A stretch of DNA of 64,000 bases. Origin: Mesodorylaimus sp. YZB2_4. Its lineage: Eukaryota; Nematoda; Enoplea; Dorylaimida; Dorylaimidae. The notes beneath the pieces are model-generated. The model saw only the letters and a program-made list of their open reading frames with translations. It did no database searches and was not told the DNA's origin. The DNA lies in the NCBI GenBank assembly GCA_030248295.1, contig JASANH010000156.1, forward strand, positions 62,001-126,000, written 5' to 3'. The translations under genes were made by a program, and so were the position numbers. This document shows positions 1,935 to 47,573 of this stretch, in pieces; within the stretch, counting starts at the first letter, position 1, and each line of letters opens with the position of its first letter.

Positions 1935-2375
1935 TCATATATCCGGAGAATAACTGGCACTGCTGTCTGCTTGATACTTCTTGCCCCACAACATCAGCAT
2001 TCTCGGCGCCCCTGGCTTGACCATGCCGAATCGTCTTTTCGTTCGCTCTTCGCTACTTTCGTCAGACGAGCCATCATCAACGGACGGCGACAGTTGTTCG
2101 AAGAAATTCCTGGGTGATATGAAGAAGATAATCGGTGAGGTTTATCTGTGGCATCCCACCCTCACGGAGCTTCCCTTCCCTTTACCTACAGCAATAAAAG
2201 TACTTTAAGATCCCTGTACTCACTCGCTGTACGGCTCCACCTCCGGCCCTACCACTTCTTCGGATCCTGATGAGCGATCATAGGAATCGCCTTCACCGGA
2301 TAATAAGTACATTGCCTCGGGCAAAGAGAGCAGGGCGATAAAGCAAAACACAGCTAGAAGAGTACGTGAAGACAT
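1935..2375 (-). CDS. Secreted neuropeptide precursor, LMLW-amide type
   Basis: This is a two-exon gene on the minus strand. Exon 1 (2375-2224) encodes a signal peptide starting MSSRTLLAVFCF and an acidic spacer, and ends at a GTGAGT donor. Exon 2 (2109-1935) starts after a pyrimidine-rich CAG, and the phases agree (2 + 1). The product is 108 aa. The only clear processing unit lies between a TKRR site and a GKK site, and would release FGMVKPGAPRMLMLW as a C-terminal amide. The glycine before the dibasic site is the usual amidation donor. A short tail follows before the stop. The arrangement of signal peptide, acidic spacer, dibasic sites and amidation glycine is that of a neuropeptide precursor. 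I do not recognise the family. The LW-amide end recalls the W-amide of myoinhibitory peptides, but there is no second Trp. Confidence 0.68.
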
Positions 2376-3431
2376 TGCTGACCAAAAACAGACCGAAGAA
2401 CTGCGCCCCCAGGATTCTCTCACACAGACTTGAACGAAAAAATGAAGAACTCTCTTCCTCGTCAGATCCCCCGCGGCAACAGGGGGCTCATGGGCAAACA
2501 AGGATTTACTGGGCCAGTCACGTAAAAAGCCAGTTTCAGACTAATTGGTAATAAGACAATGTTGTCACATCTGCGACCCGTGATCAGATGGTTGGAGCAG
2601 AAAATGCGAACTGGGGGGGGGGGGGGGGGGAAGAGGAGGATGCGTTACAAGGCATGTGTGTGAGTGGCACGAAACATGTCAATAGGCCAGATTGTGATCA
2701 AACTCGGCTGCTGCATGCTTGGAGAATCTCGAGATACCATGATCATGATTTATGACAGGAAAACTACGGCTAGTTCGCTCGTTGATGGTCTCTGCAGGGT
2801 ATGGGGGGTTTGTCTGATTGTGAGATGGATAGTCTCGCTTACCTCGGGGACTGCTTCTGGAGAAGTATGAAAAATGGGAAAGTGTTTAACAGAGCAAGAA
2901 ATGTTTTTTTCGGACAGCAAGTCTTTTCATCAAAGAAGAGACGACACATTGATCAATGGACTATATCTGAGCCATTTGCGTATTCGCCAGGTCCACGCAG
3001 GTCCCGTTATTTCCCACCTCATAAGTGCATTCATTTGTCATATCGAGCCCCGAGGAATGGAAAACTCATCTAACCATTCCGCATTCAAATTCCGGGGGCA
3101 GCAATCGAAGGTTAGCTCCCATCCACTATTGAGGTCAGGCAGAAGCTAAACTCAAAGGCCCAATAAATAATTCATTTCTGTTATCCACCCCAGAAACGCG
3201 AGACCGTTGTCTAGGCCGTACGTGATATCTCGAGGCGAACACTCACGCCTCCATCCAACCCGCTCGAACATCAAATCGCTGCCGCTTCGTTAATTTATAA
3301 TTTAGCAACCTACGGGTCGTCGATTTCCGACTTGGCATCTTGTATATACTGTGCATAACATATCGCTATAACTCGAGCTTGCTAAGTAGCAGTGAGCACG
3401 ACTCTGGACCAGTCGCCTGCTTGCTATCACG
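2376..3431. other. Intergenic with a G18 homopolymer
   Basis: I see no supported gene. A run of 18 G occupies 2613-2630. The right part should hold the promoter of the allatostatin-C-like gene; a TATATA-like stretch near 3343 lies about 85 bp upstream of its start codon. Confidence 0.4.
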
Positions 3432-4619
3432 ATGCCAGCGATAAGGGGTTATTTGGTTGTAACTATTCTGCTGCTGGCTTCTGTGAAGTGCTACCTGTGC
3501 GCGCCCATATCAGAAGAACAGCCAGATGGTCAAAACCTGGACAAGTAAGACTCATTCAGTGCGGGAGTACAAAACTTTGAAGAGCTGGTCTACTGTAGCC
3601 TGTCCTTGGGATTTTCGCTCACCCACACATAAACCTGCGAGCTTGTACCACAGGAAACGGAGAAAGGTACCAGCAACAAAATGGGCCCACCAAACGAGTG
3701 GGGCAGGGCAGCATCCCAGATCGACTAAACTAACCCTTTGGTAGGCTTGTGCACCGTCAGATTTCTAAGCTTTCTGTAACACAGCCCCTGCTCTAATTGT
3801 GAGCAGAAGGCTGGCCCCAATTAAGTTTCTCCCACATCTTTCAATAACTCCCCGCAGCTCCGTACTTTTCGGTGGGCGTGTTTTTTTTGTCAAATATGCG
3901 AATTTCTTTAATATTTGAGGATTCTCTGGTTTGCGGCTTTCGCAGATTCAGAAGAGGTTCAATTGAAAGTCCTGCAACGGAATATGTCTCACGTTGAAGA
4001 TAACAAAATGCTTGTAAAAGTTAAGCGGCCTTACAAGCAACTACTTCATTAACTGCAAAAAATGAATGCCCTCTAGACCAAGAGCTATGTCGGAATCAGT
4101 TTGTGCGGTCTTTTTGCTCTTTGTTTGCCTAGTCGCAAAGAGATCACGGGTTTGCCGTAGGACCTATCCTGGCAACGTGTCCCTAACGTTCTCCTCTGCC
4201 CCGACATCTGTCCTGTTTTTTCAGCTTCTCCCAACGGAATGTACAGTAAGACTCGTACTATCCATATACATATTTCGGACTCTTCTGGTGTATTCTGTCA
4301 TTTCAGCTTCGATCGTTTCAGGAGTCGGTACAATTTGGACGACGACGCGATGTATTTTGAGCAGAAAGAACCGTCAGCCACGCTGGACGAATGGCCGGAG
4401 CCGGAGGACATAAGAGCGAGAGCTGGTATGTATTCACTGTTTCGTCGTTACTTTCGCACTAATCGTTCAACTGGCAAGTCGGACATAAGACGTCTTCTTG
4501 AAAAAGGCAAATCCGACACACGAAAACGGAAGCCGCAAAAAAGTTTTCGAAGTTGCTACTTCTCGCCGATTCAATGTTTCCTGAACGAACGTCAAGGCCA
4601 AGATAAGGCGGGCGCCTGA
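3432..4619 (+). CDS. AstC-like: Allatostatin-C-like neuropeptide precursor
   Basis: Exon 1 (3432-3544) encodes a signal peptide (MPAIRGYLVVTILLLASVKC) and ends in phase 2 at a GTAAGA donor. The last exon (4307-4619) begins after TTTCAG and supplies the missing base, giving 141 aa. The C-terminal part carries a basic stretch (RKRKPQK) followed by SFRSCYFSPIQCF. The CYFxPIxCF core is the disulphide-ring signature of allatostatin C, whose insect form has CYFNPISCF. AstC is a brain and gut peptide acting on somatostatin/opioid-like receptors. Unusually, the peptide does not end at CF: LNERQGQDKAGA follows before the stop, so further trimming would be needed. A possible 21-nt microexon (4225-4245) would add seven residues in frame. 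An AATAAA lies at 4753, about 135 nt past the stop. The family call is fairly sure; exon usage is less so. Confidence 0.78.
4225..4245 (+). other. Possible 21-nt microexon of the AstC-like gene
   Basis: This 21-nt block sits between a TTTTTTCAG acceptor and a GTAAGA donor inside the AstC-like intron. Its length is a multiple of three and it has no stop in the required phase, so it can be included or skipped without breaking the frame. It is inferred from splice signals only. Confidence 0.35.
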
Positions 4620-4752
4620 GTCGATGGAAGACACGTGATAGGGCGGGCAAAGTTTTGCATTTATTGGCGGTGAAGAAAGAGAAAGTTCGCGAAATTATCT
4701 TGTCCGTAATAATAAGTGCTTTTTCTAAAGCAAAATTGGGTTTTCATTGATC

Positions 4753-4758
4753 AATAAA
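4753..4758 (+). terminator. AATAAA polyadenylation signal, AstC-like gene
   Basis: A canonical AATAAA lies about 135 nt after the stop codon of the allatostatin-C-like gene. Confidence 0.5.
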
Positions 4759-5138: not shown

Positions 5139-5719
5139 ATGAGGAAACTGTTGGTGTTGGCGTTTGTTGTGGGATGCTATGTGGTGGTGGCCAACTGTAT
5201 GACCGTGAGGTATGGACACGGTAGGTCCAGATACGACAGATGGCACACCGGTGGCGGTCGAATGAAGAGTCGGCACGACTCGCAGGCCAACAGGTGAGGC
5301 AAGGAATTGATTAGCAGGGAGGGTCACAAAGTGGTGCAACAGACACCAATATCAGCATGCCGTGATGTAGACACACTGCCATTTCGAAAATACTGTATCT
5401 TGGTTTTGTACTGAGGCGGAAGTCAATGCTTTTTCTAAAAACGACCAAATCCCAAGTGAGAGAGGGGGGACGCTAAAAAACCTGACTGCTGTGGGCCATC
5501 CTAGCAAGCAAGATACAATTCCTGAATGTTCCGAGCCATAAGATCTACTTTCTTTCCAGCCGACCGCATTACTATGCGTCTATGATGGTCCCGTCGTCAG
5601 TGGCCATTATTGGCAAACGAGAAGTCGTATACCAGAACATGGACCAGGGCGGTCGATCCAAAAGAGCTCTGATACATAACGCGCTGGATGCTGCCGTGCC
5701 CAACGATCTAATTCTTTGA
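5139..5719 (+). CDS. Small secreted peptide precursor, family unknown
   Basis: This is a two-exon gene of 104 aa. Exon 1 (5139-5293) encodes MRKLLVLAFVVGCYVVVANC, a clear signal peptide, then a basic Arg/His-rich stretch, and stops at a GTGAGG donor in phase 2. Exon 2 (5560-5719) follows a TTTCTTTCCAG acceptor in matching phase. It contains two Lys-Arg sites (IIGKREVV and RSKRALI), so a prohormone convertase could release ALIHNALDAAVPNDLIL as the C-terminal peptide. That peptide has the length and helical look of pigment-dispersing factor, but no amidation glycine, and the resemblance is weak. A truncated copy of exon 1 lies just downstream. Secretion is well supported and hormone function is inferred. 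Confidence 0.62.
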
Positions 5720-5804: not shown

Positions 5805-5950
5805 CATAGCAAGACTGCATTTAAAAAATGAGGGAACTCTCGGTGTTGCCGTTTGTGTTGGGATACTATTGTATGTGGAAGTGGCCGCCAGTATGACCGA
5901 GAGATATGGACAAGGTAGATCCAGATGACAGATGGCACACCTATAGGAGT
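5805..5950 (+). pseudogene. Truncated duplicate of the upstream peptide gene's exon 1
   Basis: The stretch from GCAAGACTGCAT through a start codon at 5828 and on to about 5950 matches exon 1 of the 5139 gene together with its 5' flank, with many substitutions. Small insertions shift the frame, and a stop comes early after a Trp/Pro-rich out-of-frame run. No copy of exon 2 follows. It is a dead tandem duplicate of one exon. Confidence 0.7.
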
Positions 5951-8058: not shown

Positions 8059-9883
8059 ATGGTACCAACAACAGTCATATTGGCTCTAATGATATCTAAG
8101 ACTGCAGCAGCTCCTTCTTGCGCAGTCCGTACCATTCCCCCAACACCCTCCCCGACTGACAAACCATGGTTCACTTGTTCGAGTGGAAATGGACAGACAT
8201 TGCCAAAGAGTGCGGGACGTTCTTGTCCGAATATGGGTACGGGGCGGTCCAAATCTCGCCTCCTAACGAGCATCTGATGCAAAAGATCAATGGCAATATG
8301 CCCTGGTGGATCCGATACCAGCCAGTGTCCTACAAGTTGACGAGAAGTAGAAGCGGGACGGAACAGGAGTTTGCTGACATGGTCGACCGGTGTAACAAGG
8401 TTGGAGTAAGGTACGGCAGTTACGGCAATGGCATCTGGTCATCAGCTGGCAGCAACTTCGATGGCACTCACGGAGTGAACGCATTCCCCGCTGTGCCCCA
8501 TTCGATATATGATTTCCACGACAACTTGTGCGACGGTGACATCGAGCAGGACGACTACACCAAGAATGCCTGGGCTGTGCGGATGTGAAGTTTGGATGCT
8601 CTACTCGATTTGGACCACGGCAAGCCTTGGGTCAGACAAAAGATCAGCGAATACTTCAATCGCTTGATCGATATTGGAGTGGCTGGGATCCGAATCGATG
8701 CGTCAAAGCATATGTGGCCAAACGATATCCTGTCCTTATTAGGCATGTTTCACATTGACCCAACTTTACATGGCCAAAGTAAGAGCATCCATGGGAAGGC
8801 TATGTAAGTACTAGGTGCATCAGTGCATTCTAAAAATATGAGCGTGAGTAAAAGTACGGGTCATATGTTGAGAAACTCAAGATAGATGCTTGCTCGCACT
8901 CCATACTTCCCTGGGCTCGATCTTGGTCTTCAGACAAGCCTCTATACGTGGTGCAAGAAGCCATCGATGGGGACGCCGAGGTCATCAAATCCACAGAATA
9001 CTTATAAAGTGGCCGTGTCACCAATTTCAATTACGGCATCGACGTAGCAGCGGCTGTGCGTCGGCTAAAGAACTTCAAGCACTTCACAAACTTTGGTTTC
9101 GATCATTCTTACGTGCCCGACGAGGTTTCTGTGGTCTTCATTGACAATCACGACGATCAACGCGACGACGAGCGCGTGCTCACGTTCCAACGTGACGGAT
9201 GAAAGTACATCACGGGTGTCTCGTACATGCTGGCGTGGACCTACGGCTACTCCAGGGTCATGTCCAGCTATTCGTTCATTTATCGCGACCAAGTAAGCGC
9301 AGCTTAGGCTCACTTCCCTTTTCCCCCCTCGTCCCGATATCAGGCGCTAAACTCGGGTGAGACGTTTCTGTGTCCTTCCTCTCACCATCCGTGTCGAGAA
9401 ATTGCGGCTATCCAATCTAGGAACAAATACATATGCACGAATCGCCATCACTTATCCTAAAAGATAGGAAATACGCCTCAAATACTTTATAATTTCTTGA
9501 ACCATCGTTTGACTGTGTAACCCGCACCCAGGCAGTGGGAGATTTGAGAGACCGAAGCCTCTGGGTAAAAAGACTCCGGCTGGAGAAAGGCAAGCCTCGC
9601 GACTATACCTGCCGCTGAAACATCAACTGGAGTGGTTGACGTTTCCCAGCCAGGGAAAAGCACCCGACCGCCAGGAATTCTGGCCAGCCAATGTTGTAAA
9701 TAGCGATCTAGAAAGGCTTGCTTCTTCACATTTCATTCTCTCCTTCTGCTGCAGGGCCCGCCTAACAGCGGTTCGCCAAATTGGATAACCACCTCGCCGA
9801 GCTTACAGCCGGATGAAACCTGCTCACCTCAGATTGGCTGGCTGTGCGAGCACTGTCTTCCACCCATCCGCCGCATGGTCGCC
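8059..9883 (+). pseudogene. Alpha-amylase pseudogene, truncated
   Basis: This is a decayed copy of the amylase at 13.1-16.2 kb in the same order. It has lost its function in several independent ways. The signal-peptide exon carries frame-disrupting changes. Intron 1 and the exon segment encoding [10 protein letters not shown] are deleted, joined at a short TACGGCA repeat. A Cys codon has become TGA after AVRM (about 8586). A Gln has become TAA (about 9005) and a Trp has become TGA (about 9200). The copy of exon 4 starts at about 9755 after a CTGCAG acceptor and breaks off at 9883, exactly where an inverted-repeat element begins. The last intron holds a dispersed repeat (about 9540-9665). No later exons are present. 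Confidence 0.9.
9540..9665 (+). repeat. Dispersed repeat of the GCTGAAACATCA family
   Basis: This segment shares GGCAAGYCTCGCGACTATAC and GCTGAAACATCA-type blocks with segments near 58.7 kb and 58.96 kb. It lies inside the last intron of the amylase pseudogene, so it inserted after or around the duplication. It encodes nothing recognisable. Confidence 0.55.
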
Positions 9884-13058: not shown

Positions 13059-13144
13059 TGTGAGCACAGACCTGTTAAGAGTCGTCAGTCAAGGTTCCCC
13101 GTTGGAACTGTTTGTTTTTCAAGCCTATGCATACTTCCAGCACT

Positions 13145-16100
13145 ATGGCATCAACCATAGGAACATTGGCTCTAATCGCTTCGCTTATGATATCTGTGGT
13201 CACTGGAGCTTTGTACAGCCCGTACCATTCTCCCAACACTCTCCCCGACAGGCAAACCATGGTTCATTTGTTCGAGTGGAAATGGACAGACATTGCCAAA
13301 GAGTGCGAGACGTTCTTGTCCAAATATGGGTACGGGGCGGTCCAAATCTCGCCTCCTAACGAGCATCTGATGCAAGAGATCAATGGCAACATGCCTTGGT
13401 GGATCCGATACCAGCCAGTGTCCTACAAGTTGACGAGAAGTAGAAGCGGGACGGAACAGGAGTTTGTTGACATGGTCGACCGGTGTAACAAGGTTGGAGT
13501 GAGGTACGGCAGTCAAATGATCTTCAAGCAATTCTGACGGGCTCGTGGTTTGGTGGGTTAGGCTTCTAGCAGGCATCTGCCTAACCCATCAGGTGCGCAG
13601 GCGAGAGTTCGACTCGCGACCCAGTATATCATTTTTTATGTATGTGTCCCTTCGCCCTCGAGTGCTCATAAGCGTTTGGTCATGTGGTAAAACATGAACA
13701 TTAACATGACTTTTTACAGAATAATTGTGGACGGTGTGGTCAATCACATGGCTAAAATCAACCAAAAATACCCCGGCACTTACGGCAATGGCATCTGGTC
13801 ATCAGCTGGCAGCAACTTCGATGGTACCCACGGAGTGAACGCATTCCCCGCTGTGCCCTATTCGATATATGATTTCCACGACAACTTGTGCGACGGTGAC
13901 ATCCAGCAGGACGACTACACCAAAAATGCCTGGGCTGTGCGAATGTGCCGTTTGGATGGCCTACTCGATTTGGACCACGGCAAGCCTTGGGTCAGACAAA
14001 AGATAAGCGAATACTTCAATCGCTTGATCGATATTGGAGTGGCTGGGATCCGAATCGATGCGTCAAAGCATATGTGGCCAAACGATATCCTATCCATATT
14101 AGGCATGCTCAACAATGTCAACTCAACCTTGTACGGCCAAAGTAAGTGGTTTCGTGATAAAATTGAGAAATACGTAGAAGCAGACCATAAGGACACTGAT
14201 TTACCTTCAGACAAACGTCCATACGTGATGCAGGAAGTCATCGACAGTGGCGGCGAAGCTGTCAAGGCCACAGAATACTTCCAAAGTGGCCGCATCACCA
14301 ATTTTAATTACGGCATCGACGTAGCAGCAGCTGTACGTCGCCAAAAAAACTTCAAATACTTTACAAACTTCGGACCTGGCTGGTCGTATCTCCCCGACGA
14401 GGTGTCCATGGTCTTTATCGATAACCACGACGATCAACGGGACGACACGCGGGTGCTCACGTATCAACGTGACGGATGGAAGTACATCATGGGTGTCTCG
14501 TACATGCTGGCGTGGACCTATGGATATCCGAGGGTCATGTCTAGCTATTCTTTCACTTATCGCGATCAGGTGAGTGCACCGATCTACTAAAGGAGATATG
14601 GTGGAACTCGGCTGTTCAGAAAGCAAATTAGAGTGAGGATAAGAGTTTCAGAGAAGGGTATGGCATACCTTTCGTAGTGCATCTCTGTTTGGAAGTCGCG
14701 AGCTTATCCTGTGAGCAGTACTGTCTAGCGCGGCCAATTTTCGTCACAGTACTGTACTGTTCAGCAGTACTGTCTAGCACAGGTCGCGCCAGACAGAAGT
14801 TGTGCGATTGCCAGACGATACTCTTGATGTCCAACACATAAAATGGCCAGCTGTCTTCATGCTATGCAGTTCGAACCGAAGCATTGTTGCGAGCTGTCAG
14901 GCGGTCGCATATTTGGTTGGTTCCAGAAGGCGGGATGGCATGTCTCCTTTTCTATAAATATACAGTGTTTGCTTTTTCCACTTTTTGTCAGCCCTCAGTA
15001 TCTTTAATTCCTTTCAGGGTCCGCCCAACAGTGGGTCGCCAAATTGGGTAACCACCTCTCCAAGCTTCCAACCCGATGAGACCTGCTCACCTCAGATTGG
15101 CTGGCTGTGCGAGCACCGTCTTCCACCCATCCGCCGCATGGTCGCCTTTCGAAGTGCCGTGATGGGAGGTGCACCAGCCAATATTGTGGCCGAAGACAAT
15201 CGCATAGCTTTTCGCAGGGGAGACAAAGGTTTCTATGCCTTAAATAACGCCGACAGCCAATGGCAACGAGCTTTCTACACGGGAATGCCTGAAGGATCAT
15301 ATTGCGATGTGATCAGTGGAGAATTCGATGAGAAGGCCAAAAAGTAAGACGAGCTTCATTTGTCTCATCGCACCTCGGCCAAAGTAGTTACCCCTTCTCA
15401 GATGCACTGGCCTGACCATCCTAGTTGACTCAAATGGCAATGCCAATGTTATGGTCTACCCTAACGATATGGTGGCTATCCACATCGGACAACGTGTACC
15501 CACTACACCGATTCCCACACCAGCTTCGCTGCCAGCCAGCTACAAACGAACCGTGATCATGGTCCACAAGAAATCTGACATCGGCCAGAACGTGTTCATT
15601 CGCGGAGGTCTGGATCATGACACGCATGGATGCCAAGGTGACAGCAGCGCCGCCTCCAGCAAGTGCTCTATCCCAATCGTACACGAGACAAATGTCTCGA
15701 CCGAAGACTTCGGGGCGTACCTCTCTTGGGCTCAGAGCGACCGATATTTGGATTGGTTTGGTGCTGAAGTTGATCAAGGTATATATCGCGTCATAATATG
15801 TTTACGTCATGGGTCTTCCAATCTTCTATTTCAGCCACTTACGACGGAGTTGTTGCTGATGGTACGCCACTGGTTTGGACCACGAATAAACAGGGCCAGA
15901 TGGGGTATCATCCACTGAATACTTACGGCGACGACTACTGGATGGCTGACCTGATGATGGACTGCAGCAAAACGGACAACGGCTGGTTCTCGTTCAAGTC
16001 ATTCTTGAAGACCAGCCTGGTTGGTGACGTCGGCGCGTGGGAAAACGACATCCACCAAACTGGACAATGCCAAGGTGATTCTGCCACTCCTACACCAGCC

Positions 16101-16190
16101 AACATCGGATTTAACCACGCCGGACTGTGCGGCACTATCAATGTGTTCGATTATGGCCAAAACGCATGCGAAATCAAACACGTGGCTTAG
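13145..16190 (+). CDS. Amy: Secreted alpha-amylase with extra C-terminal domain
   Basis: This is an endo-1,4-alpha-glucan hydrolase (GH13), a secreted digestive enzyme. Six exons, 13145-13503, 13720-14141, 14211-14569, 15018-15343, 15402-15778 and 15835-16190, join in phase to 732 aa. Residues 1-22 form a signal peptide. The barrel shows DGVVNHM and the catalytic residues Asp233 (GIRIDAS), Glu269 (VMQEV) and Asp334 (IDNHDDQR). The GHGAGG loop of most animal amylases is absent. The classical C domain ends near the CTG motif. A Thr/Pro linker then leads to a further domain of about 220 aa ([20 protein letters not shown], later [14 protein letters not shown]), like the extension known in some invertebrate and bacterial amylases. 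An in-frame ATG at 13127 is an alternative start. Intron 1 hosts a SINE. Intron 2 is 69 bp, in frame and stop-free, but comparison with the pseudogene shows it is an intron. Confidence 0.93.
13537..13710 (+). mobile_element. tRNA-derived SINE in amylase intron 1
   Basis: An A-box-like GTGGTTTGGTGGG and a B box, AGTTCGACTC, lie about 60 bp apart, as in a pol III promoter. A tRNA-unrelated body (TGTCCCTTC, CCTCGAGTGC, ATAAGCGTTTGG) follows, then a short AACAT-type tail. A second copy lies at 59467-59640. Apart from the splice ends, the element makes up most of the 216-bp intron. Confidence 0.8.
14570..15017 (+). other. Amylase intron 3 with a short direct repeat
   Basis: This 448-bp intron has a GTGAGT donor and a CTTTCAG acceptor. 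It contains two copies of CAGTACTGTCTAGC at about 14720 and 14765, with CAGTACTGTACTG between them. The corresponding intron of the pseudogene is similar in length but carries a different repeat. Confidence 0.6.
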
Positions 16191-20205: not shown

Positions 20206-21597
20206 ATGGAAAACAGCACGGTTGCATTTCTGGCCTCGCTGGCCAATGACACTACAATGTACCCTATGAGCACTGGAGGAAGTGCACTGGCCACGGTTAA
20301 AGTACCTAGCCTAAAGGTACAGGACATTATTCGGCTGGCCGTACTGGCAACCCTGTTCGCAGTCGGAGCACCGTTGAACTTGGCTGCTTTATCTCAACTT
20401 TTGACCAGCAGGAAGACATTGTCGGCGTCTGGCCGTCGCATGCATCTCCTGAAGCTGCATTTGAACGCTTCCGACTTGCTTATTTTGTTCGTGTACACTG
20501 CTAGCCAGTTGTGCTGGCTTATAACTTACGAGTGGCGAGGCGGACCAGTGCTGTGCAAATTGGTTAAATTCCTCCACACTCTCTCATTCGGTATCAGTTC
20601 CAATGTGATTGTGTGCATAGCATTCGATCGTGTGGCTTCGACGTTCGAGTCGAAGCGTCAGACAACAGATGACAGTAACAAACCGGGTCTGCGTCGGGTC
20701 AAGATCAGTTTATGTGTAGCTTGGTTAATCGCCATTTTGGGAGCTTTGCCGCAGTTCTTCGTCTGGAGAACCTATCAGCCATTTTATCCGCTTAACAGTT
20801 GGACGCAGTGCGTGTCCGTATGGTTCGTCCGCGACTATGATCAGAGATGGTATGGGCGAACAAGCGTGCCGGAACCGTTCCTGTCCAAACGAGGATACGC
20901 CATATTCCATGTGGTGGCTATATTCTGGATCCCGTGTCTGCTCATCGCCGTCTGCTACTTGCACGTTATGGCTTGGTTGTTGTTCCATGGTGGCGGCAAC
21001 GACTGTTGCAAGGCGGTCAGTGGAGGTAGTCGCGAAGCGCCCGATGAACCTGTTGACGAATCGGGCCCGAGGAATGTGGTCGAGTGGATCTATGATCTGC
21101 TCACGCGTCGTATGACGCACGGCTCCATCGACAGTGTTCAATTGAGGGCCGTGACAGGTATGGAAGAAGCCAACGGCAACTATCAATGTAGTCAACTCAA
21201 GGTGGCTCCGGCCACCGCCATCAGAGCTCATAAAGGATCAGGTGGAAGTACTGCTCCCTTGCTGGCCCCACTGGCTACCGGCACGACGGTGGCCGAGTTG
21301 GAGGCAACGGCGGCTCACAGCACTCGGACGGCGTCGAACGCTACAGCGCTGTCCCACGACATGCGACGGGTACAAAGACGGGCTATTCGCATAAGCGTGT
21401 TACTGGTGTTGGCCTACGTGGTCACCTGGCTCCCCTACAATAGCCTGGCCCTGTGGCAGTTCATCGACGAACCGCATTATTTGAGATACGGCATCACCGT
21501 CTCCTTCCTACAACATCTGATCGTATTAAACTCAGTCATCAATCCGTTCCTCTACGGTACGGTGGGCAGTATGAGAAAGTATACGACTAACGGGTGA
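20206..21597 (+). CDS. Peptide GPCR 1, GnRH/AKH/vasopressin-like, intronless
   Basis: This 463-aa class A receptor is encoded by one exon. The ATG at 20206 sits in GCCGCCATGG, a near-ideal initiation context. N-glycosylation sites (NST, NDT) occur in the N-terminus. Seven hydrophobic helices are visible. TM2 has LKLHLNASDL, TM3 begins CKLVKFLHTLSF, TM6 has WLPYN and TM7 has NSVINPFLYG. The LHLNxSDL, WRGG and CKLVKF pattern places it with GnRH, AKH, corazonin and vasopressin receptors, which couple peptide hormones to G proteins at the plasma membrane. The usual DRY motif is DRV. The third intracellular loop is long (about 130 aa). The C-terminal tail is only about 10 residues after TM7. It is closest to GPCR 2 in this window. 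The ligand is unknown. Confidence 0.88.
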   Translation: MENSTVAFLASLANDTTMYPMSTGGSALATVKVPSLKVQDIIRLAVLATLFAVGAPLNLAALSQLLTSRKTLSASGRRMHLLKLHLNASDLLILFVYTASQLCWLITYEWRGGPVLCKLVKFLHTLSFGISSNVIVCIAFDRVASTFESKRQTTDDSNKPGLRRVKISLCVAWLIAILGALPQFFVWRTYQPFYPLNSWTQCVSVWFVRDYDQRWYGRTSVPEPFLSKRGYAIFHVVAIFWIPCLLIAVCYLHVMAWLLFHGGGNDCCKAVSGGSREAPDEPVDESGPRNVVEWIYDLLTRRMTHGSIDSVQLRAVTGMEEANGNYQCSQLKVAPATAIRAHKGSGGSTAPLLAPLATGTTVAELEATAAHSTRTASNATALSHDMRRVQRRAIRISVLLVLAYVVTWLPYNSLALWQFIDEPHYLRYGITVSFLQHLIVLNSVINPFLYGTVGSMRKYTTNG

Positions 21598-25052: not shown

Positions 25053-26567
25053 ATGAACAAGGTCGTAACCACGGCCGCCTCGGCTTTACTCGCAACAACT
25101 TGGAATGAAACGAGTGTTCACGAGAAAATCTATCAACTAGCCGGGTCAAGCATCAGCGGCCGCGCTCCCATGCCGACATCAGCTCTATTTCCGCCACAGG
25201 TTCCGAGTTGGAAAACGCAGGATATTATTAGATTGGTCATTTTGCCCATTCTTTTCGCGATCGGCGCCCCCTTAAATCTGGCCGCTCTTTCACACTTGAT
25301 GTCAGAAAAGAGGACGACCTCATCATCGGCTGCTCGTATGCACTTGCTAAAATTGCATTTGAACATATCCGATTTGATGATCCTATTCGTCTACACGGCC
25401 TCTCAGATCTGCTGGCTAATCATCTACGAATGGCGAGGTGGTGACTTTCTTTGCAAGTTCGTCAAATTCTCTCATACTCTCTCATTCGGCATCAGTTCGA
25501 ACGTGGTCGTGTGTATCGCTTTCGATCGATGGGCCTCTGTTTTTGAATCAAAAAGGCGCAGAAGCGATGAACGAAGAAATCCGGGCTTGCGACGTGTCAA
25601 AGTTAGCCTGTTCTTAGCCTGGGCGTCAGCCATTGCGTGCGCGTTGCCCCAGTTCATGGTTTGGACAACATATCGCCCGTTCGCCACCAACTCATGGACC
25701 CAGTGCGTGTCTGTGTTCTTCGTTCAGGAAGCGGCCATGAAACGAAACCCGAATCTGACTGCTCAAAGTTCTACTTATAGCTTGCTCATGAATAAGACTG
25801 GATACGCGGCCTTCCACGTTCTGGTCATATTTTGGATCCCCGCTTTGATCATAGCCGTGTGCTACATGAACGTTACAGCCTGGCTTTGTTGTCACGGTCG
25901 TGGCAGTGGACCCAGGAACTCGATCACGAGCGATGGAGGTAGTGCTGCTCGATTTTGGAACTGTTTTTCCATAGCCATCAGAAGCAGACTTAATTCGCAA
26001 GCGAACCCCCAGAATAGTCCCAGTCCCGTGGATGGCAGGTGCAGATACGCCTCCATGGGCAGAACTAAGACGGCTCAAGTGGGGGTTTTAATCGACGAGG
26101 GCACGTGTTCTAAATCGTGCACGGTCCGAAGTGATTACGGAGCCTTGGAGGCGCCGGATATTGGAGTGTTGAGTACAAGTGGAATCTGCTTGGCCAATCC
26201 CACTTCCCCCAAAGGGTCGGGGTGCAGTAGCACACCTCTTTTGGCTACGACTGTCGCAGATCATCACACGACAAGTGGCGGAAGTCGGACAGCCTCCGCA
26301 AACATTGTCATGACTCCGGCCGTATTGGATTTGCAAAGAGTCAAACGACGAGCCATGCGAAGTAGCTTCCTTTTGGTCATTGCATATATCGCCACTTGGT
26401 TGCCGTACAATGTGATCGCTTTGTGGGGCCTCATTGATGAGAGGCACTACAAGCAGTACGGAGTCAGTGTGTCCTTCTTGCAGTACTTGATTGTTGTCAA
26501 TTCTGTCATCAACCCATTTTTGTACGGCACTGTCGGACGTTTGCGCAAGTACGTCAGCAACAGCTAG
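25053..26567 (+). CDS. Peptide GPCR 2, GnRH/AKH/vasopressin-like, intronless
   Basis: This 504-aa seven-helix receptor is encoded in one exon and is a close paralogue of GPCR 1. Shared blocks include GAPLNLAALS, LKLHLN, WRGGDFLCKFVKF, SFGISSN, WLPYNVIALW and NSVINPFLYGTVG. The long N-terminus has an N-glycosylation site (NETS). The DRY position reads DRW. The third intracellular loop is very long (about 170 aa), Ser/Gly-rich and poorly conserved relative to GPCR 1. As in the paralogues, only about 10 residues follow TM7, so there is no usual arrestin-binding tail. Lack of introns in both GPCR 1 and 2, against introns in 3 and 4, suggests intron loss or retroposition in their common ancestor followed by tandem duplication. 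Confidence 0.88.
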   Translation: MNKVVTTAASALLATTWNETSVHEKIYQLAGSSISGRAPMPTSALFPPQVPSWKTQDIIRLVILPILFAIGAPLNLAALSHLMSEKRTTSSSAARMHLLKLHLNISDLMILFVYTASQICWLIIYEWRGGDFLCKFVKFSHTLSFGISSNVVVCIAFDRWASVFESKRRRSDERRNPGLRRVKVSLFLAWASAIACALPQFMVWTTYRPFATNSWTQCVSVFFVQEAAMKRNPNLTAQSSTYSLLMNKTGYAAFHVLVIFWIPALIIAVCYMNVTAWLCCHGRGSGPRNSITSDGGSAARFWNCFSIAIRSRLNSQANPQNSPSPVDGRCRYASMGRTKTAQVGVLIDEGTCSKSCTVRSDYGALEAPDIGVLSTSGICLANPTSPKGSGCSSTPLLATTVADHHTTSGGSRTASANIVMTPAVLDLQRVKRRAMRSSFLLVIAYIATWLPYNVIALWGLIDERHYKQYGVSVSFLQYLIVVNSVINPFLYGTVGRLRKYVSNS

Positions 26568-30174: not shown

Positions 30175-31761
30175 ATGAGTTGGAACGAGAGTGATGGCTT
30201 GGCCATGTTGGCCAATCGGACCCATCATTCATTCATGCATTCGAAACCACCCGAGCCATTGGTTGTGGACAGGGTACAGCTGGCCTTGCTTCTTTTGTTG
30301 TTCCTTGTTGGTGCACCCTTAAATTTGGTATCATTCACAAAGTTGCGAAGTCGTCGATCATTGGCGCGAACGGGACGACTGGCCTTACTTCGTTTGCACT
30401 TGAACATATCTGATCTGATGGTCATGTTCATATTCGTTACTTCGAGCGTATGTTGGCAGCTGACCTACCAATGGCGAGGCGGTGATTTCCTGTGCAAGCT
30501 AGTGAAATTTCTCAACTCGACATCGTTCCAACTATCCTCCAATATTATGGTCTGTGTGGCGTTGGATCGAGTGCTGACAGTCATATGCGGCACTGTGTTC
30601 TACAAGCGATACGTCAACCGCAACCCGGCCCGATACGTTCGCATGTGCGTGGTCGCGTCCTGGATCGTGGCTATCGGTGTGAATATCTCGCAGTTTTTCG
30701 TCTGGATAGTAGTCGCCCCATTCCCGCACACGGATCCGCAGTGGCATCAGTGCATCACAGTTTGGTCAGCATCAGCCCACTTCAAACGGCAATCGATAAG
30801 CGACTCGGCCTATAAGCGCTTCTACGACAACGCCATTACATCTCCTTTTCAAATGAATCAGTTCACATACAATGTGTTCCACATTGTGGCTGTATTCTGG
30901 ATCCCTGCGGCCGTGATCGTGTTCAGTTACAGCGTTGTGGTTCTGCACATGTTCAACCTGAGTGCGAAACGGAAGACGTCAGAGAAATGGTTGGCAAAAG
31001 TCAAGCCCCTTCCTGCTTGCGGGGACGGAGTAACCCAAATGTCCAATCTGGTTCCTAGCGGAGTGGAAATGGTCCGGATGAGGCCAGAGAATGAAGAAAA
31101 GTGAGTGTGATGATAGCCTGAAAGGTGTAGCTCCTATTTGGGAGGAAGGACCAAGGGGAATGCTCAGGTTGTCCAAAAACGTTTAACGTACTGGCTTCGG
31201 GTTTATGACTGTCGAATATTGTTGCCGAAGCATTCGAACGAAGCAGTGCGTCATTTTGCGCTCTGCTGGCTCCTTTGCGAGAGCAGGAATTCATGCTTTC
31301 ATGAATCTATGTTCAAAACACCTGCCATGATCAACGGTATGGCAGACACTCAGTTTGGTCATTGCCATGTTATTCCATTAACTTTCTTTCGTTATAGACT
31401 ATCTGAAAGCTGCTTATCAAAAGAAGGAAAAGACGAGGGTGAAACCTTTTTTCAAAATGTCACCGACAACGCTCCGAGCACGGCATCCAAAGCATACTTG
31501 TTGCCTGTTGCTATCCACAGAATGCGTAACAAGACGTTTCGCATGAGTTTGTTTTTGGTAGCAGCATATTTTTTCTGCTGGACGCCGTACAATGTATTGG
31601 CGTTATGGCAGTTTTTTGATGCGGATGGGTACCGAAAATGGGCAGTGGGCATGAAATTCTTAAATGTTCTCATTGTCTTTAATTCTGTTATGAACCCTTT
31701 CCTATATGGCACACTAAAGTGCAAGATACCTTGGCGACGCAGGAAGGCGGAGACGGCTTAG
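30175..31761 (+). CDS. Peptide GPCR 3, GnRH/AKH/vasopressin-like
   Basis: Two exons (30175-31100 and 31398-31761) join in phase 2 across a 297-bp intron, with a GTGAGT donor and a TTATAG acceptor, to give 429 aa. The N-terminus has NES and NRT glycosylation sites. Core blocks are LRLHLNISDLMV, WRGGDFLCKLVKFL, SFQLSSNIMVCVALDR, WTPYNVLALW and NSVMNPFLYG. The DRY position reads DRV. The intron falls in the third intracellular loop just before TM6, at the same place and phase as in GPCR 4, so the two share an ancestral gene structure. The tail after TM7 is short and basic (KIPWRRRK). Function is inferred to be hormone sensing at the cell surface. Confidence 0.88.
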
Positions 31762-32711: not shown

Positions 32712-34781
32712 CTGAGGGCGAAAATAGATCTCTTTCAACAGTAGTGGGGTTTTACAGTCCGTAAACCCGCACTTCGTAAAATCGTTCTAGGGCTATTCCC
32801 TCATTAAAGGTCTAGTCCTTCAGTTCGGATGCGACTCGTGGGGTTCTTAGTCTAAATCGAACTGCGATCGCACGCTGATGATAAAGGAAGTAGACTGAAG
32901 TAGATTGAAAACAAGTGCAGCGATAGGTTTTGACCCATATCAGACATAAATAGACACATCGGCCTTCGATCCTTCGATTTATAAGAATGTCAACGGGACA
33001 TTTTTGAGAGAAGCTTCAAATTATGACTGGCGTAAATGCAGCTCAAGGGTAGAGGACTGATAGAGAAAGGATAATTATAAAAAGCTAACGCTGGCCATAG
33101 TGACCACGGCTGGAGCCCTTGCATTTCTTTTGTGCGGGATGGCTGGTGTCTTGAGCAGTGAGTTGACATAGATTAGTCCATGAGCACCGTACAAACTTGG
33201 GATCAGTCTGACAAGTGGCCACGTAATGCTTCCAAGGCGGGTCATGCCTTCAAGGCTTTTATTGTAACTTGAGTAACACGTGTACAAGTTAGCTATCTCC
33301 TGCCAACAGCATTCGACTTATTGACAGCTTCACATGTGTAGCCCACAGACTCGACTCTTGTGTCGACGGTTCTTAACCTAGTTGCAATGAAACCGACATT
33401 TTTGGTCTTTAAAAACAGGTCACCTACAATTTTTGCTGATGAGAATATGTGATATGCAGGGGTGCATATTTAATGCTAATGTGATTTAGTGTGCACCTTA
33501 TATTAAAAAATATCAAGGATTACTTTTAGCACAGTGCCTGCCTGCTTTTTGTTCAGGGAACACATAAAAAAGAGTCACAGGATGTATCAAAGACTTTAAA
33601 AGAGATCCATGCACAGTAGGTTACATACTGTGAGCCCGAAGCTAGTAGGTAACTCGTTTATTACCAGACCTTCATGCATCCCACAGCGTGCTAAGAAAGT
33701 TCTCGCAGCGCAGACTCGGTTTTTCCAGCTCAAGGTGATGCTGAAGCCTTGAGTGCATACGTCGATAGGAAGTTCACAAAAAAAAAGAAAAAGCAGCGTT
33801 TCCTGTGCATATGTACTGTACAATTTTCGGCAATTTTTCGAGTTAATCTTTGTGCAATCAAAGGGCATTTCATCTGGCTCAAAAAACTCGCTGACCAAAT
33901 GCTGAAAGCGGTTGGGAATGGTGAAAACAGTTAAACACGTCACCCCATTGTCACAAGCAGCTAATGAGACAAGCTGACGTCGGGAGTACGAACTTCCTAA
34001 TTTAGCACCTGATCTAGACAGTATGTATAACATGATCTCTAAAAGGCGTGAGTCACTAAACTTTGAGGGTTCGGTTGATAATTATTCTACTCGGCCTTCA
34101 TTGTTTCTACTTTGGCAATGTCTGTTGTAATTGGGAGGCGGATCATTAAACCAATCCTCTTGCTATGGTGATGGTCTCCAACTGATTGTCACGGGGGTCG
34201 GATCTGTTTGATTCCGTTTCATCGGTGCGCTTTTGCTTCCATGGCACGGCGACATATTGGCTGGAGGGCCCACAGTTTTGTCTGGTGCCTATTAAGCAGC
34301 CCTTTTTTGGACTGCAGAAAGCTGGAATTCGTTGTAAAAAGCTAAAAATACATCTAAAATTCAATCGCATGCGACATTGTTGAGTTACATGACGGGATAT
34401 CATGCGGATCATAGTTATGACTGGCGGAGAGGCGGGATGTGTCCATCACGGGTAACTTGATATATTGCAGCTCATTAGCCATTCGGCATCCATATCGAGT
34501 CAACAAGCCGTGATAGGCAAAGCACTGCTCAATTCACGGCCACCATTCAATTGAGCATGGTGAAATAGGGCGAGCAGAAGACGCACTGGGAATCGACGTA
34601 GGCCATGAGTTGGAATAAAGAGAATATCAGATAAATGAAGAAGACAAATACGAGGGCGTTGGTTGGCCGTGGAAACGAAAGTCCTATCCATCCTATCCTC
34701 TTTGAATATAGACTACAGACTTGTGTCGGAGAGCCATTCGATTTCGAGGTAGGGCGCCTCCAGGAAGGCCGAGTTCCAACC
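32712..34781. other. Intergenic, no supported gene
   Basis: I see no coding exon with support. The longest frame (34033-33596, minus, 145 codons) is within chance length for this much sequence and has no motif. The last 100 bp contain the 5' flank of the FSKLW peptide gene. Confidence 0.4.
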
Positions 34782-35084: not shown

Positions 35085-36725
35085 GAAGGCGATGGAGCTT
35101 CTAATATTTATGTACTGGGGCCAATGGATGACAACTGATTGAACCGAGTTTATCGTAACCCAATAGTCGTACGGTGTCTGTGAATGTTTATGGTCGCTCG
35201 GTGGGCTGTAATAAAGTTTGCAATGAGTTGCTGTTTGTTTGTCTTGTCAGCTAAATCGATTCCGCCTGGGTACGACTTATTGTGCACATTCCGTAGGTCT
35301 TTGGGCAGCTTGTCTCGATGGTGTAATACTGTACGTCTGGGCCGAAGGAAGTGACCAGTGGAGCTTTTTCAATACGCCAACAACTACTGCACAAAGTCTT
35401 CCAACCGTCCGCGGCTGAACCATCACCCTGACGGGGATGCTCTCAGCTGCAGGCTCCAGGGTCGATTGCGAGATGAGCCTTACAATGGGGCTCGGAGGAA
35501 CTTGTAATTTCTAGGCATGCCGCATCAAGCCTATGTTTATGCAGTTCTGAATGAGCGATCACTTGCAGCGCGACCAGAATGAATGAAAATACGAGGCTTG
35601 CGATTTGTCTTACAATTAATGCATATGCAGTTATTTCATGAAGCCAACCTAACATCAGCTAACTCACGCCCACTCATGATAACTAGAATGACGAGTCCCT
35701 GAAGTGGATGACAAAATAACGTCAAAGCAATCTGATCAAAACAACCTGAGTGACAACATTGTCTTGACGTTCATTGAACATGGTGATCCCTCGGCAGTGG
35801 TCATTCGAGAATTGAGCGACGTTGATTGTCCGCCCGGCTGAACCAGGCGCAAGCTCTGCATTTAGAATGACTCTCCCAAAATAGCTCCAGAGTGAGTTCC
35901 TTTTGCTTGAATTGACCGGGACTTTTTCTGTAGGGCTACGTATGGCAAATGCCAAAAATTTCGAAAACCCACACAAAAACATGAGTTTATGCAGTCATTT
36001 GGTAATCTCTGACTAAGGAAAACCGAAATAGAGACGGATACCTAGGATAGTTTTGAGGGGTATGATCGAGGGGTTAACCCTTGCACCCGAGCTATCAGAG
36101 GCCAGGGAACAGCTTTCTCACCTTTCCGCCACAGCGCCTGACCCGTCATATACTCAAGCTCTTGCTGCCCACAGTAGATTCACGACCTGCGAAGACGTGC
36201 CTTCGGCGATAAAGCCGTCAAACGGCACTAGTGAAATTTTTGCCGCTCTCTAGGATTTCAGGTCCGTTAAAGGCATTTGGAAAAGTCATAGCCCACAAGC
36301 ATTCCGTAGCGCCCTTTTCAGACCCCATTCCCATTATAGAAAAGGAGCTTTCCTACCAGAGGCTTTTATTTCAGGCTGCCCCTTCATTTTAAGAAATGTG
36401 GTATGCGAATTTTTTTGCCCCCACACTGGCGGAGTAAAGCAAACGCCATCTCGAGGCGACCTTTCCACCCTCTCAGTTAATGGACCGGAGTCTTGACCTG
36501 ACGCCTCTTACAGTATCTATTACTATAAGAATGCAAACGCCTCCACCTGCGGAACCATTGCCCACATACTGTATGAATGACTGCATATGTAGACACTTAT
36601 GTCAGCTGCCATGTTCTCCACAGAAACTACTATAGTTAGCAGAGACCAATTGGGGTTCGCTGCTGGACGCCATTGCAGCGAAGTCTGGATAACAACTGAT
36701 CCAGTGCTACTGCTGTACACGAATA
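35085..36725. other. Intergenic with a dispersed repeat
   Basis: There is no supported gene. A copy of the GCTGAAACATCA repeat family lies at about 35330-35475. A 66-codon frame at 36053-36253 has balanced composition but no other support. Confidence 0.4.
35330..35475 (+). repeat. Dispersed repeat of the GCTGAAACATCA family
   Basis: This segment shares TACGTCTGGGCCG at the start, GCTGAAnCATCACC in the middle and a GATTG...AGnnGAGCC end with 38775-38960. A reverse-oriented relative lies at about 47930-48060. No coding capacity. Confidence 0.6.
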
Positions 36726-41277: not shown

Positions 41278-41328
41278 ACCAAGAAGCATTTTGAAAAAGT
41301 AATACACCATCAGGCATAATCCTTGTGC

Positions 41329-44176: not shown

Positions 44177-44210
44177 ACGCTCAACATATACAGTAGTATA
44201 TGTTGAGCGT
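44177..44210. repeat. Perfect hairpin, 15-bp stem, 4-nt loop
   Basis: ACGCTCAACATATAC, loop AGTA, then the exact reverse complement. It abuts the TATGT minisatellite. Confidence 0.8.
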
Positions 44211-44360: not shown

Positions 44361-44568
44361 ATCACTTCCACCGCTACCTTCTTCAGATGAAGGCACTCAT
44401 GTCGATACAATCTCCTTGATGAACGATTGGATGGTCCGTCTATCGACCACTAATCGATAGTATTAGCACACTCCTCAAAACAGCAAAGTGAAAGGTGCTT
44501 CCATGTGAGAGCAATTTTCGGATTGATTTTACTGCCGAGTATGGCAACTGCTTCACTTTCAACTAACT

Positions 44569-44826
44569 ATGACGTCGCCAATCCCCGAACAATTATATTT
44601 TAGTGGGTACCGTCTCCCTGATCTGCAGCATACAATAAGTCCTCCCCATCGTAGAGAAGCTGTGCACAGACATCTCATTCGGGCAATAGTGCAAGTCAGG
44701 GAACAATGTTCAGTTATACTAAAATTCACTGAAAATTGTTTGGCAGAAGTGAGCAATCGAACAGAACATCTCTTTAGCCACGCTAAGCCTTTTCTCCAGC
44801 CCCCAGGTAAATCGGTTATCATGTAG
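44569..44826 (+). CDS. Hypothetical small protein or first exon
   Basis: An 85-codon frame starting MTSPIPEQLYFSGYRLPD. The middle part (AIVQVREQCSVILKFTENCL) looks like an amphipathic helix. There is no signal peptide or membrane segment. A CAG|GTAAAT donor near the end suggests the frame may be a first exon of a longer gene whose next exon I could not place. No family recognised. Confidence 0.35.
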   Translation: MTSPIPEQLYFSGYRLPDLQHTISPPHRREAVHRHLIRAIVQVREQCSVILKFTENCLAEVSNRTEHLFSHAKPFLQPPGKSVIM

Positions 44827-45978
44827 TCCATATTCTGTTCCTTCACCCTATGTTGCGCATGCCTGCTTTTGCTGGTATTATAAGATAGGAACATGGTTAA
44901 CTCAAGCAGTTTAGCTTTCCTGGGTTGTAAAGGGCCCTGTAAAATATTGGACTACCCCTTCATTTCACGTCAAGTCACTGATGGATCTAACACATCAAGA
45001 CACCCATTTATATTCTTTCGAACTTTAGGTGGCACATGGGTGACCAAGCAGCTGGCGTGTTTATTCGTATCAGAGCATGACGTCAATAAGGCTGGATGAC
45101 GCCACTATCGAGGTGTTCCAACAGGCCACTCGTGTGCGCAGACAGTTTCGGCTGTCGAACAACCCCTCGATTGTCCGAAGAATCCCTTTTGCTGAGGTCT
45201 CCAAGTGAATACACAGGGCGAGCTGCAGCGGCTTTTCCCCATCTGCCTCTCTTATAAGGTTTGACTGCCGGGCTTGCTACTGGGCGGAGTCAAAAATTAA
45301 AAAAACGTGGTGGGTGATCTACTGTAAGGCAGCACAGGGAGTAGTATAGGTACAGGCTCATTGCAAAAGCATTCTTTTCGTTCACAAAAGTCAAGTCTTT
45401 TTTAAATTTGCTCCTCTCTCTGCGTGCTATTTGACCTTGTGATATAAGGACAAAAGGAAACAGAAACTTAGAGGCGTACCGCTGTGCATCTGCGTATCCC
45501 TTCTTCTCAATTAAGGAAAGCCAGTGGGATGGTGGCCTGATTAAATGTTATAGGACCCCAATGTGTCAAATTACTTAACATGTCGATACGGGCATGTTTA
45601 TCGGCAATCAGTCGAGAGATGTGACAAGAGGACCAATGAGATATTATTCGGGTTATATTCGTGACCGTGATGAACAATTCTGTCAAATGGAATTAACCAG
45701 GCGTGGCTTCAAAGCGTCTCCAAGCAACGTCTCGTGAAAACAGGTTTGAAGTAGGAAGAGACAGCTTCGTTATCGATTTCACTCTTTTCGTCGAGGCTTA
45801 TTTGATAAGGTCGAAAGTGAACTCAAACAACTAATGCTAATAAGTGATGACTCTTTCAGAAACTTGCCCTCTACGTCATCTAATCGGAAATGCTAGCGAA
45901 TTGGCTAAATAAGGAATGAATTTAGTTTGAATCATCGAATAATCGCCCGGTCATCTGTTCAGCCAAAAAGAAGAGACC
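44827..45978. other. Intergenic upstream of GPCR 4
   Basis: There is no supported gene. The last 100 bp are the 5' flank of GPCR 4. Confidence 0.4.
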
Positions 45979-47573
45979 ATGGACATACAGTCCGACATGG
46001 TCATGACTTCGATGCAACGAGAGCCACCGAGGCCGTTGGCAGCCGATCATATCCAACTGACATTGCTGATCGTCCTGTTCGCCATTGGAGCTCCAATCAA
46101 CTTGGTCTCATTCAGTAAACTGTGGCGGAGGAAGGCTTTGAGGAGTGCGGGCAGATTGACCATTCTCAAGCTGCATTTGAACGTGGCTGATCTGATGATA
46201 CTGTTCATATACGTGACCAGCACGGCCTGCTGGCAAATAACATTCCAATGGCGAGGGGGGGACATTTTGTGCAAGTGCATCAAATTCCTGCACTCGGCAT
46301 CGTTCCAATTATCGTCCAATATTATGGTTGGTTCTAGCAAGGCCCCCTCGTACCACATGGATTGCCAGGGCAATACACTGTACAAAGACTTACACTTTTT
46401 ACTCTTGCAGGTAGCGGTGGCTCTAGATCGTCTGGTCACTATCGTCCATTTCAATTTGGCTGGTCCGAAACGAGGGAAGAGCTTTCGGAGAAGGAGCAGT
46501 CGGAGATCTCGTCGTAGTTCCAGGAAACGCGCTAGCGACGCCATGGCACTTCGATACGTACGTATCTTTGTCTACACAGCTTGGACAGCTGCTGTTGTTC
46601 TCAACCTGCCTCAGTTCGCTATTTGGCGAGTCTACGCACCTTTCGATCACAGACCACAATGGCACCAGTGCGTGACTGTGTGGGCTATCGGCCAGGATGA
46701 TTGGCCCGTGATGTCTAATGCGACCAGCTCGACGGAAACGTCCACTATCATTTCGCAATTCACCTACGATGTGCTGCAATTGGTGTTTGTTTTCTGGACA
46801 CCAGCTGTGCTCCTGGTCGTATCTTACGTCATCATTATGCTTTATCTGCAACGACTGTGCTCAAAAGAGCAGATGTCAGTTTCGAGCAAGCAAGCGGACG
46901 CCAGTCAGGAAGTCAGGAATCCATTGACATCGAGTCACGAGAGGAGTCTCAAGCGGGCGTCCGTAGCCTACGAAGGAGATAGTGACGAGGAGACACGGGA
47001 CAGGTGGGTCGGGGCGAGTCTGGTGCACTGACTACGTGAGACTTTTACGAATATTGTCTGGATAGCCTCAGGTGGGGTTTTGGGGCCTTGACGTGGTTGT
47101 CACGGTGCGCAGTTGGCGAACCACGCAAGGGGGCTAATCTTTCGTAGCTGATGAGAAGTTCCATTTGAGGCAGCTCTGATTGCTATACAATTTTCAGAAG
47201 GAAAAGCTGTGGGACAAACTGCCCCAGAAAATCCATTTGCTCAATAACGTCATCCACAGCCGCCCCATCCGAGGAGCGTTCCGATAAAGAAGGCGGGATA
47301 GCATCGCGCGACGGTCCCGAAGTAGCCTCTGTTCCAGCTAACATTCAACTAGTCCGCAAGAAGACATTCCGCACCAGCATGATGCTCATCTTCGCGTACC
47401 TGCTCTTCTGGTTGCCTTACAACGTCATGGCCTTGTGGTGGTACATCGACACTGAAGGCTATCGGCGATATGGGTTCAGTCTAAAGTTCTTGAATGTTCT
47501 CATAGTTCTCAATTCCGTGGTCAACCCGTTTATTTATGGAACCTTAGGGAAGACTTGGAAATGTGGAAAGTAA
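45979..47573 (+). CDS. Peptide GPCR 4, GnRH/AKH/vasopressin-like
   Basis: Three exons (45979-46326, 46411-47003 and 47198-47573) join in phase to 438 aa. The core blocks match GPCR 3: GAPINLVSFSKLW, LKLHLNVADLMI, WRGGDILCKCIKFL, SFQLSSNIM, WLPYNVMALWW and NSVVNPFIYGTLG. The first intron (46327-46410, 84 bp) lies in TM3, is a multiple of three and has no stop. I call it an intron because GPCR 3 reads straight through (SSNIMVCVALDR) and because a TTGCAG acceptor is present; its donor GTTGGT is weak. The second intron sits in the third intracellular loop in phase 2, as in GPCR 3. DRY reads DRL. A strongly basic second intracellular loop (RRRSSRRSRRSSRK) is unique to this copy. The tail after TM7 is about eight residues. 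Confidence 0.87.

Follow-up and report, generated by a model that had tools for sequence, protein, structure and literature searches.

A duplicated block of receptor and short peptide precursor genes in Mesodorylaimus sp. YZB2_4, with candidate ligands for a GnRH/AKH-type receptor clade

Genes of the locus

The stretch of DNA analysed here (64,000 nucleotides, hereafter the window) belongs to contig JASANH010000156.1 of the dorylaimid nematode Mesodorylaimus sp. YZB2_4 (assembly GCA_030248295.1; C172:62001-126000 in our contig numbering). It carries four class-A G-protein-coupled receptor (GPCR) genes, designated R1 to R4, and genes for short secreted precursors. An earlier note on this DNA had listed up to five such precursors and four paralogous peptide GPCRs, and all of them, the GPCRs as intact class-A genes, were recovered where it had placed them. 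Two of the precursor genes, an FSKLW-repeat gene (P1) and an FLKFRamide gene, lie between R3 and R4. The core formed by the receptor, FSKLW and FLKFR genes has a second copy on contig C95 of the same genome, which is a new result.

The genome searched comprised 145 Mb in 1067 contigs, and the first 100 kb of C95 were compared with the window. All gene models are predictions from DNA alone; the splice junctions given below are of the GT-AG type and keep the frame, and the predicted signal peptides were judged from hydropathy, both by a script and by eye. A crude scan of single open reading frames (ORFs), requiring a hydrophobic N-terminus and at least two dibasic sites, returned five ORFs in the window, including the FSKLW and FLKFR genes, and one in the reversed window. 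When an amidation site was required in a scan for short precursors, there were four ORFs in the window, one on C95 and none in either reversed sequence.

Receptors R1 to R5

R1 (20206-21597, + strand; 463 amino acids) and R2 (25053-26567, + strand; 504 amino acids) are intronless sister genes. R3 is predicted to have two exons (30175-31100 and 31398-31761, + strand) and R4 three (45979-46326, 46411-47003 and 47198-47573, + strand). R5, the receptor most like these beyond the window, is located on C95 (46116-45194 and 44561-44180), and its seven-transmembrane identity is assigned via its likeness to R1-R4. The main ORF of each of the four window receptors passed the Pfam 7tm_1 cut-off, and the first ORF of R4 barely did so (32 vs 30.5 bits). 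R1 and R2 are 54% identical, R3 and R4 42-46% depending on the alignment, and the identity of R1/R2 to R3/R4 is 34-37%. R5 is 47.5% identical to R3, its closest relative, and 40.4% to R4. R3, R4 and R5 all have a phase-2 intron that falls in the third intracellular loop.

Searches with R1 and R3 located approximately 24 places with receptors of the GnRH/vasopressin type in the genome, of which 18 entered a maximum-likelihood tree built from own-genome receptors only. A gene with an in-frame stop (L014), two places on C105, C17:779000 and the places on C35 and C179 were left out. In this tree, R3 and R5 are sisters (support 93/93) inside a group of R3, R4 and R5 (100/99); R1 and R2 form a pair (100/100), and all five receptors are held together at 92/89. 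R1-R4 appear to have multiplied locally. Among the receptors of this type, at least nine, read from single ORFs, fall in one clade.

Against solved receptors, R1 matched the GnRH receptor (1.4e-19) and V1a (2.4e-18) best, and the next family was the angiotensin type 2 receptor (2.2e-9). A profile of R1-R5 gave the same order (GnRHR, 5.7e-28; V1a, 9.8e-27; next family, 9.6e-18). The closest solved relatives of R1-R5 are therefore GnRHR and V1a/V2/OTR, clearly above other peptide receptors. The other large receptor clade of this genome was sampled with one receptor, which also found GnRHR first (3e-14). Judged by these likenesses, R1-R5 belong to the GnRH/AKH/corazonin (CRZ)/vasopressin-type superfamily.

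FSKLW precursors and their peptides

P1 (34782-35084, + strand), of which R3 is the nearest upstream receptor, is a single-exon gene encoding 100 amino acids with a signal-like N-terminus and four repeats. Between basic sites, the repeats read AGGDFSKLWA, ASADFSRVWQ, VGGDFSKLWA and (K)AGDFSKLW-amide. The corresponding gene on C95, P2 (35519-35112, - strand; P1 protein match at 35124-35495), has seven repeats, namely AGGDFSKLWA twice, APGDFSKLWSD, AGGDFSKLWA, SPGDFSTLWND, AGGDFSKLWS and VPGDFSMIWN. An extra gene, P3 (C95:32121-32435), holds one AGGDFSKLW and was found via a GDFSxxW pattern.

The genome-wide protein search with P1 matched only the window and P2; such searches miss short precursors, as they did P3 with the P1 query and FLKFR2 (see below) with the FLKFR query. 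The GDFSxxW pattern, applied at the DNA level to the whole genome, gave 28 matches compared with 14 in the control. Eleven of the 28 were read in their precursor context, and these lie in the two blocks, eight on C95 and three in the window. The 12 core repeats of this type differ chiefly at silent sites (ratio of replacement to silent differences, pN/pS, 0.13). This silent-site bias, read directly from the sequences, is support rather than proof of constraint on the peptide core, because homogenisation within the genes may contribute to it.

F-S-x-x-W is present in all 12 core repeats, a count that is not independent because the motif is part of the search pattern; a random 9-mer contains [FW][ST]xxW with a chance of 0.14-0.24%. 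The repeats fit [FW]-[ST]-X2-W, which is named as the motif common to GnRH/AKH peptides in the available part of PMC7303124. According to the available text of PMC5592718, AKHs have FS at positions 4-5 and W at position 8, ACP reads QXTFSRXW, and the AKH hallmarks are an N-terminal pyroglutamate, an aliphatic or aromatic residue at position 2 and a C-terminal amide. The last P1 repeat reads KRKAGDFSKLWGKR. A cut after the second Lys would give AGDFSKLW-amide, whereas a cut after Lys-Arg would give KAGDFSKLW-amide, which is longer by one residue. The former would show the AKH spacing (FS at 4-5 and W at 8) and a Trp-amide only if the Lys past the Lys-Arg is also removed. The AGGDFSKLW forms carry one extra N-terminal residue relative to the AKH spacing. 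At position 2, the repeats have Gly, Pro or Ser (Ala where the Lys is retained), which departs from the AKH hallmark at this position.

The string GDFSKLW was absent from the literature searched, as were FSKLWA, DFSRVW, KLWamide and three AstC-core strings (see below); subscription papers lay outside that search. The shorter string FSKLW does occur there, in 14 papers whose titles point to therapeutic peptides, among them antimicrobial, anticancer and MDM2-binding ones.

FLKFRamide precursors

The FLKFRamide precursor gene (40300-40049, - strand) has a single exon encoding 83 amino acids, with a predicted SVKPRNWEKYGRQFLKFR-amide. Its counterpart on C95, FLKFR2 (33725-34000), lies between P3 and P2 in the orientation opposite to P2 and was obtained from an amidation-site scan that was not aimed at FLKFR. 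Both genes have an amidation site, and two of the nine genome-wide matches to FLKFRG, the two read in precursor context, are precisely this pair. FLKFR2 also aligns with the FSKLW repeats (GGKDFLKFRG vs GGDFSKLWA, E 0.95). The FLKFR and FSKLW peptide genes may be ancient tandem copies of each other, a weak lead that we leave outside our claim.

The second copy of the block on contig C95

Contig C95 carries R5, P2, P3 and FLKFR2. In both places the receptor comes first, followed by the FSKLW precursor on its strand and then by the FLKFR precursor on the opposite one, so that the order and relative orientation agree. R3 and P1 are 3.0 kb apart in the window, and R5 and P2 8.7 kb apart on C95. 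A blastp comparison of the ORFs of the two regions (at least 45 amino acids, E 1e-3) found the receptors and P genes in common; genes as small as FLKFR are beyond its reach, and that pair was missed. The other shared stretches are short (near 9.5, 11.4, 12.7, 13.5, 42.7 and 59.5 kb) and resemble dispersed repeats or compositional matches, and no further shared neighbour gene was seen in the 100 kb of C95.

At the DNA level, all 12 matches between the window at 19-50 kb and C95 at 28-50 kb fall in receptor or FSKLW exons, with 66-80% identity. Because the likeness is confined to exons and is of this degree, the duplication is old, and the contigs represent neither alleles nor a recent copy.

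A random gene would lie within 10 kb of the receptor clade with a probability of approximately 0.0005. This figure is post hoc and counts once, because the two places stem from one duplication. In 14 other superfamily receptor loci (approximately 50 kb in total, with flanks of 1.5 kb), no dibasic sites enclosed an [FW][ST]xxW peptide, and two precursor-like ORFs were all that was found, neither like the FSKLW or FLKFR peptides. The linkage is thus known only for the R1-R5 clade.

Left-end precursors and other genes of the window

The three remaining precursor genes are spliced and were hence missed by the single-ORF scan; they are predicted from the reading of exons, splice sites and frame. 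The LMLW-amide precursor (2375-2224 and 2109-1935, - strand) has two exons and a predicted RFGMVKPGAPRMLMLW-amide. The allatostatin C-like (AstC-like) precursor (3432-3544 and 4307-4619, + strand) has two exons and a predicted SFRSCYFSPIQCF-type ring peptide. The third, a dibasic secreted-peptide precursor, also has two exons (5139-5293 and 5560-5719, + strand). Just downstream of it, 5828-5925 shows a partial, frame-broken likeness to its exon 1 and is probably a decayed tandem copy. Searches of the genome with LMLW and the dibasic protein found no relative elsewhere, which is weak evidence of uniqueness given that the same kind of search missed P3 and FLKFR2.

The AstC-like gene at 3432-4619 was assigned by the allatostatin C consensus: RKRKPQKSFRSCYFSPIQCF follows a basic site and contains a C-x6-C ring and, close to the C-terminus, CYF.P. 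The genome contains 22 matches to this family, the window included, and the best 12 of the 22, which were read in precursor context, all have the C-x6-C core [NS]C[YF][FY][ST]P[ILVS]QC. Allatostatin-C-like precursors thus look strongly expanded and dispersed in this genome.

Among the 22 AstC-like matches, five have one of the 143 typed GPCR places within 20 kb (0.8 expected, P 0.0009), and two have one within 10 kb (0.4 expected, P 0.06). We do not claim a general linkage of AstC-like genes and GPCRs: of the five, two are next to one and the same GPCR and another is that of the window. Of the individual cases, the GPCR on C155 is by eye of a non-peptide type; that on C47 is a stretch of 650 bases, mostly loop, with no receptor core; and the assignment of the C118 GPCR to the somatostatin type is weak (3.3e-11 vs 3.4e-10 for the LTB4 receptor). 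At C118:149232-159016, two AstC-like matches, the first of which was read, flank this GPCR as a possible second ligand-receptor linkage.

The LMLW, AstC-like and dibasic genes occupy 3.8 kb (1.9-5.7 kb) and end 14.5 kb short of R1. A search more sensitive than the blastp comparison found no counterpart of any of them on the first 100 kb of C95. Because they lack such counterparts, amylase-like genes intervene and AstC-like genes are dispersed, these three genes are probably separate neighbours that do not belong to the block. The intervening genes are two tandem amylase-like genes (8160-9346 and 13079-16190), the second with a Pfam match and the first alike by eye. Further downstream are a Piwi-type Argonaute gene (52467-54121; Piwi_N and PAZ matches) and copies of a CRAL-TRIO (Sec14-like) gene in both orientations (56934-58286, 60822-62093 and 63522-63833; Pfam match for the first, the others by eye).

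Interpretation of the block

With some reserve, we favour the reading that the receptor/FSKLW/FLKFR core represents an old gene block, duplicated as a unit, in which the ligands and receptor of a divergent GnRH/AKH-type system are linked; here we infer both the pairing of peptides with receptors and any selective reason for their linkage. The recurrence of the core on C95 supports the ligand-receptor pairing that the earlier note had offered as a hypothesis, and linkage and co-duplication would make the FSKLW and FLKFR peptides strong candidate ligands of these receptors. The block would consist of R3, of P1, which lies downstream in the same orientation, and of the FLKFRamide gene on the opposite strand, and its copying as a unit to C95 would have produced R5, P2 and FLKFR2, plus the extra P3. 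The precursors would enter the secretory pathway, where prohormone convertases would cut at Lys-Arg; trimming would then leave peptides of approximately 8-11 residues for release, AGGDFSKLWA and (K)AGDFSKLW-amide among them. The FSKLW peptides would activate R3 and R5 and perhaps R4, R1 and R2. FLKFRamide might act on a paralogue within this receptor clade or be co-released. The local tandem copies R1, R2 and R4 would widen the receptor set.

Several observations weigh against this reading. None of the 12 FSKLW repeats begins with Gln (they start with Ala, Val or Ser, or with Lys where it is not cut away), and an amidation Gly precedes the basic pair in only one of them (one of four in P1, the last; none of seven in P2; the single P3 repeat lacks it). 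The likeness of FLKFR to FLKFR2 is mostly C-terminal (31% over 71 amino acids, E 0.054 for the 100 kb), the two genes have no DNA match between the window at 19-50 kb and C95 at 28-50 kb, and the FLKFRG pattern is not enriched in the genome (nine matches vs eight in the control). A looser precursor scan, without the amidation site, returned six ORFs in the 100 kb of C95 and three in its reverse. The support for R3 and R5 as sisters is under the customary 95, and a sodium-channel (ASC-type) gene lies between R5 and P2. Finally, co-duplication can also reflect the hitch-hiking of neutral neighbours.

Because they lack N-terminal Gln and are rarely amidated, yet precedents exist for the loss of either feature, we liken the FSKLW peptides to AKHs and do not name them so; as candidate ligands, they would work like GnRH/AKH ligands. 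The precedents come from C. elegans, where, in the available part of PMC7303124, the RPamides are without pyroglutamate and NLP-47 is without amidation.

Hitch-hiking is the alternative that survives best, and we regard it as unlikely, though a serious contender. A segment in which a GPCR gene and two peptide genes unrelated to it happened to lie side by side would have been copied once, and the peptides would act on other receptors. One duplication is indeed enough to account for both places, so that the two linkages are not independent, and the 14 other superfamily loci are free of such linked peptides. On the other side, the identity of the receptors is down to 47.5% and no further shared neighbour gene was seen, yet the receptor, FSKLW and FLKFR genes are still together. 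The peptide core, moreover, holds the motif expected for this receptor class, as given in the available part of PMC7303124.

The earlier note had described a dense span of 46 kb with five precursors and four receptors, and their co-regulation as one functional cluster appears improbable to us. All parts are present and three of the precursors sit inside 3.8 kb, and density holds for 20-48 kb; it fails for the span as a whole, which is broken at 5.7-20.2 kb by the amylase-like genes. The unusual grouping likewise stands for the receptor, FSKLW and FLKFR genes, which recur on C95 in like order and orientation, but the five-precursor neighbourhood does not hold as one unit: LMLW, AstC-like and dibasic genes are without counterparts in the 100 kb of C95, and the AstC-like family is dispersed across the genome.

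Short, nearly identical repeats flanked by Lys-Arg sites, amidation sites and silent-site variation are typical traits of neuropeptide precursors. That the precursors yield secreted peptides for a different purpose, such as defence or cuticle formation, and take no part in GPCR signalling would suit the 11 of 12 FSKLW repeats without an amidation site, but we hold it to be very improbable, as it fits poorly with the repeats, the amidation sites in P1 and both FLKFR genes, and the pN/pS of 0.13.

If the block is a ligand-receptor block, its linked, co-duplicated genes provide a short list of candidate ligands for an orphan receptor clade. Expanded invertebrate sets of GnRH-like receptors are largely without known ligands, as the available part of PMC7303124 states for C. 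elegans. A new peptide channel could then arise via the joint copying of ligand and receptor, which bears on the evolution of matched pairs, whose two genes are usually unlinked.

Comparison with known systems

The systems of AKH, ACP, corazonin and GnRH resemble the one proposed here in that the receptors are nearest to GnRHR and vasopressin-type receptors and the peptides contain F-S-x-x-W. The differences here are the lack of pyroglutamate, the 11 of 12 unamidated repeats, the four (P1) and seven (P2) copies after a spacer and the linkage to receptors. A strict search of the genome for AKH octapeptides (Q-x-[NT]-F-[ST]-x-x-W-G) gave six matches compared with 12 in the control, none of the six precursor-like by eye, and a strict corazonin-type pattern gave none; looser relatives of both are possible. 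Among the papers listed, subscription papers being outside the search, titles and the opening lines of abstracts offered no clear animal precedent for neuropeptide genes linked to receptor genes.

C. elegans likewise has several GnRH-like receptors, eight in the available part of PMC7303124, which pairs the RPamides (NLP-2 and NLP-22) with GNRR-3 and GNRR-6, and NLP-47 with GNRR-1. The RPamides differ from the peptides described here in that they have no [FW][ST]xxW motif, and that part of the account describes no linkage of receptor and ligand genes.

Tentatively, the block may be viewed as an animal counterpart of a fungal pheromone/receptor (P/R) locus: a GPCR and its own ligand genes would form a heritable block whose members duplicate and diverge together and found private channels, with GnRH/AKH-type ligands that have lost pyroglutamate and multiplied. 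Mushroom pheromones are lipid-modified, the fungal loci have an allelic mating function, and no sequence relation is claimed. What the two share is precursor and receptor genes at one locus, as described for the mating-type P/R loci of mushrooms in the available text of PMC8686365.

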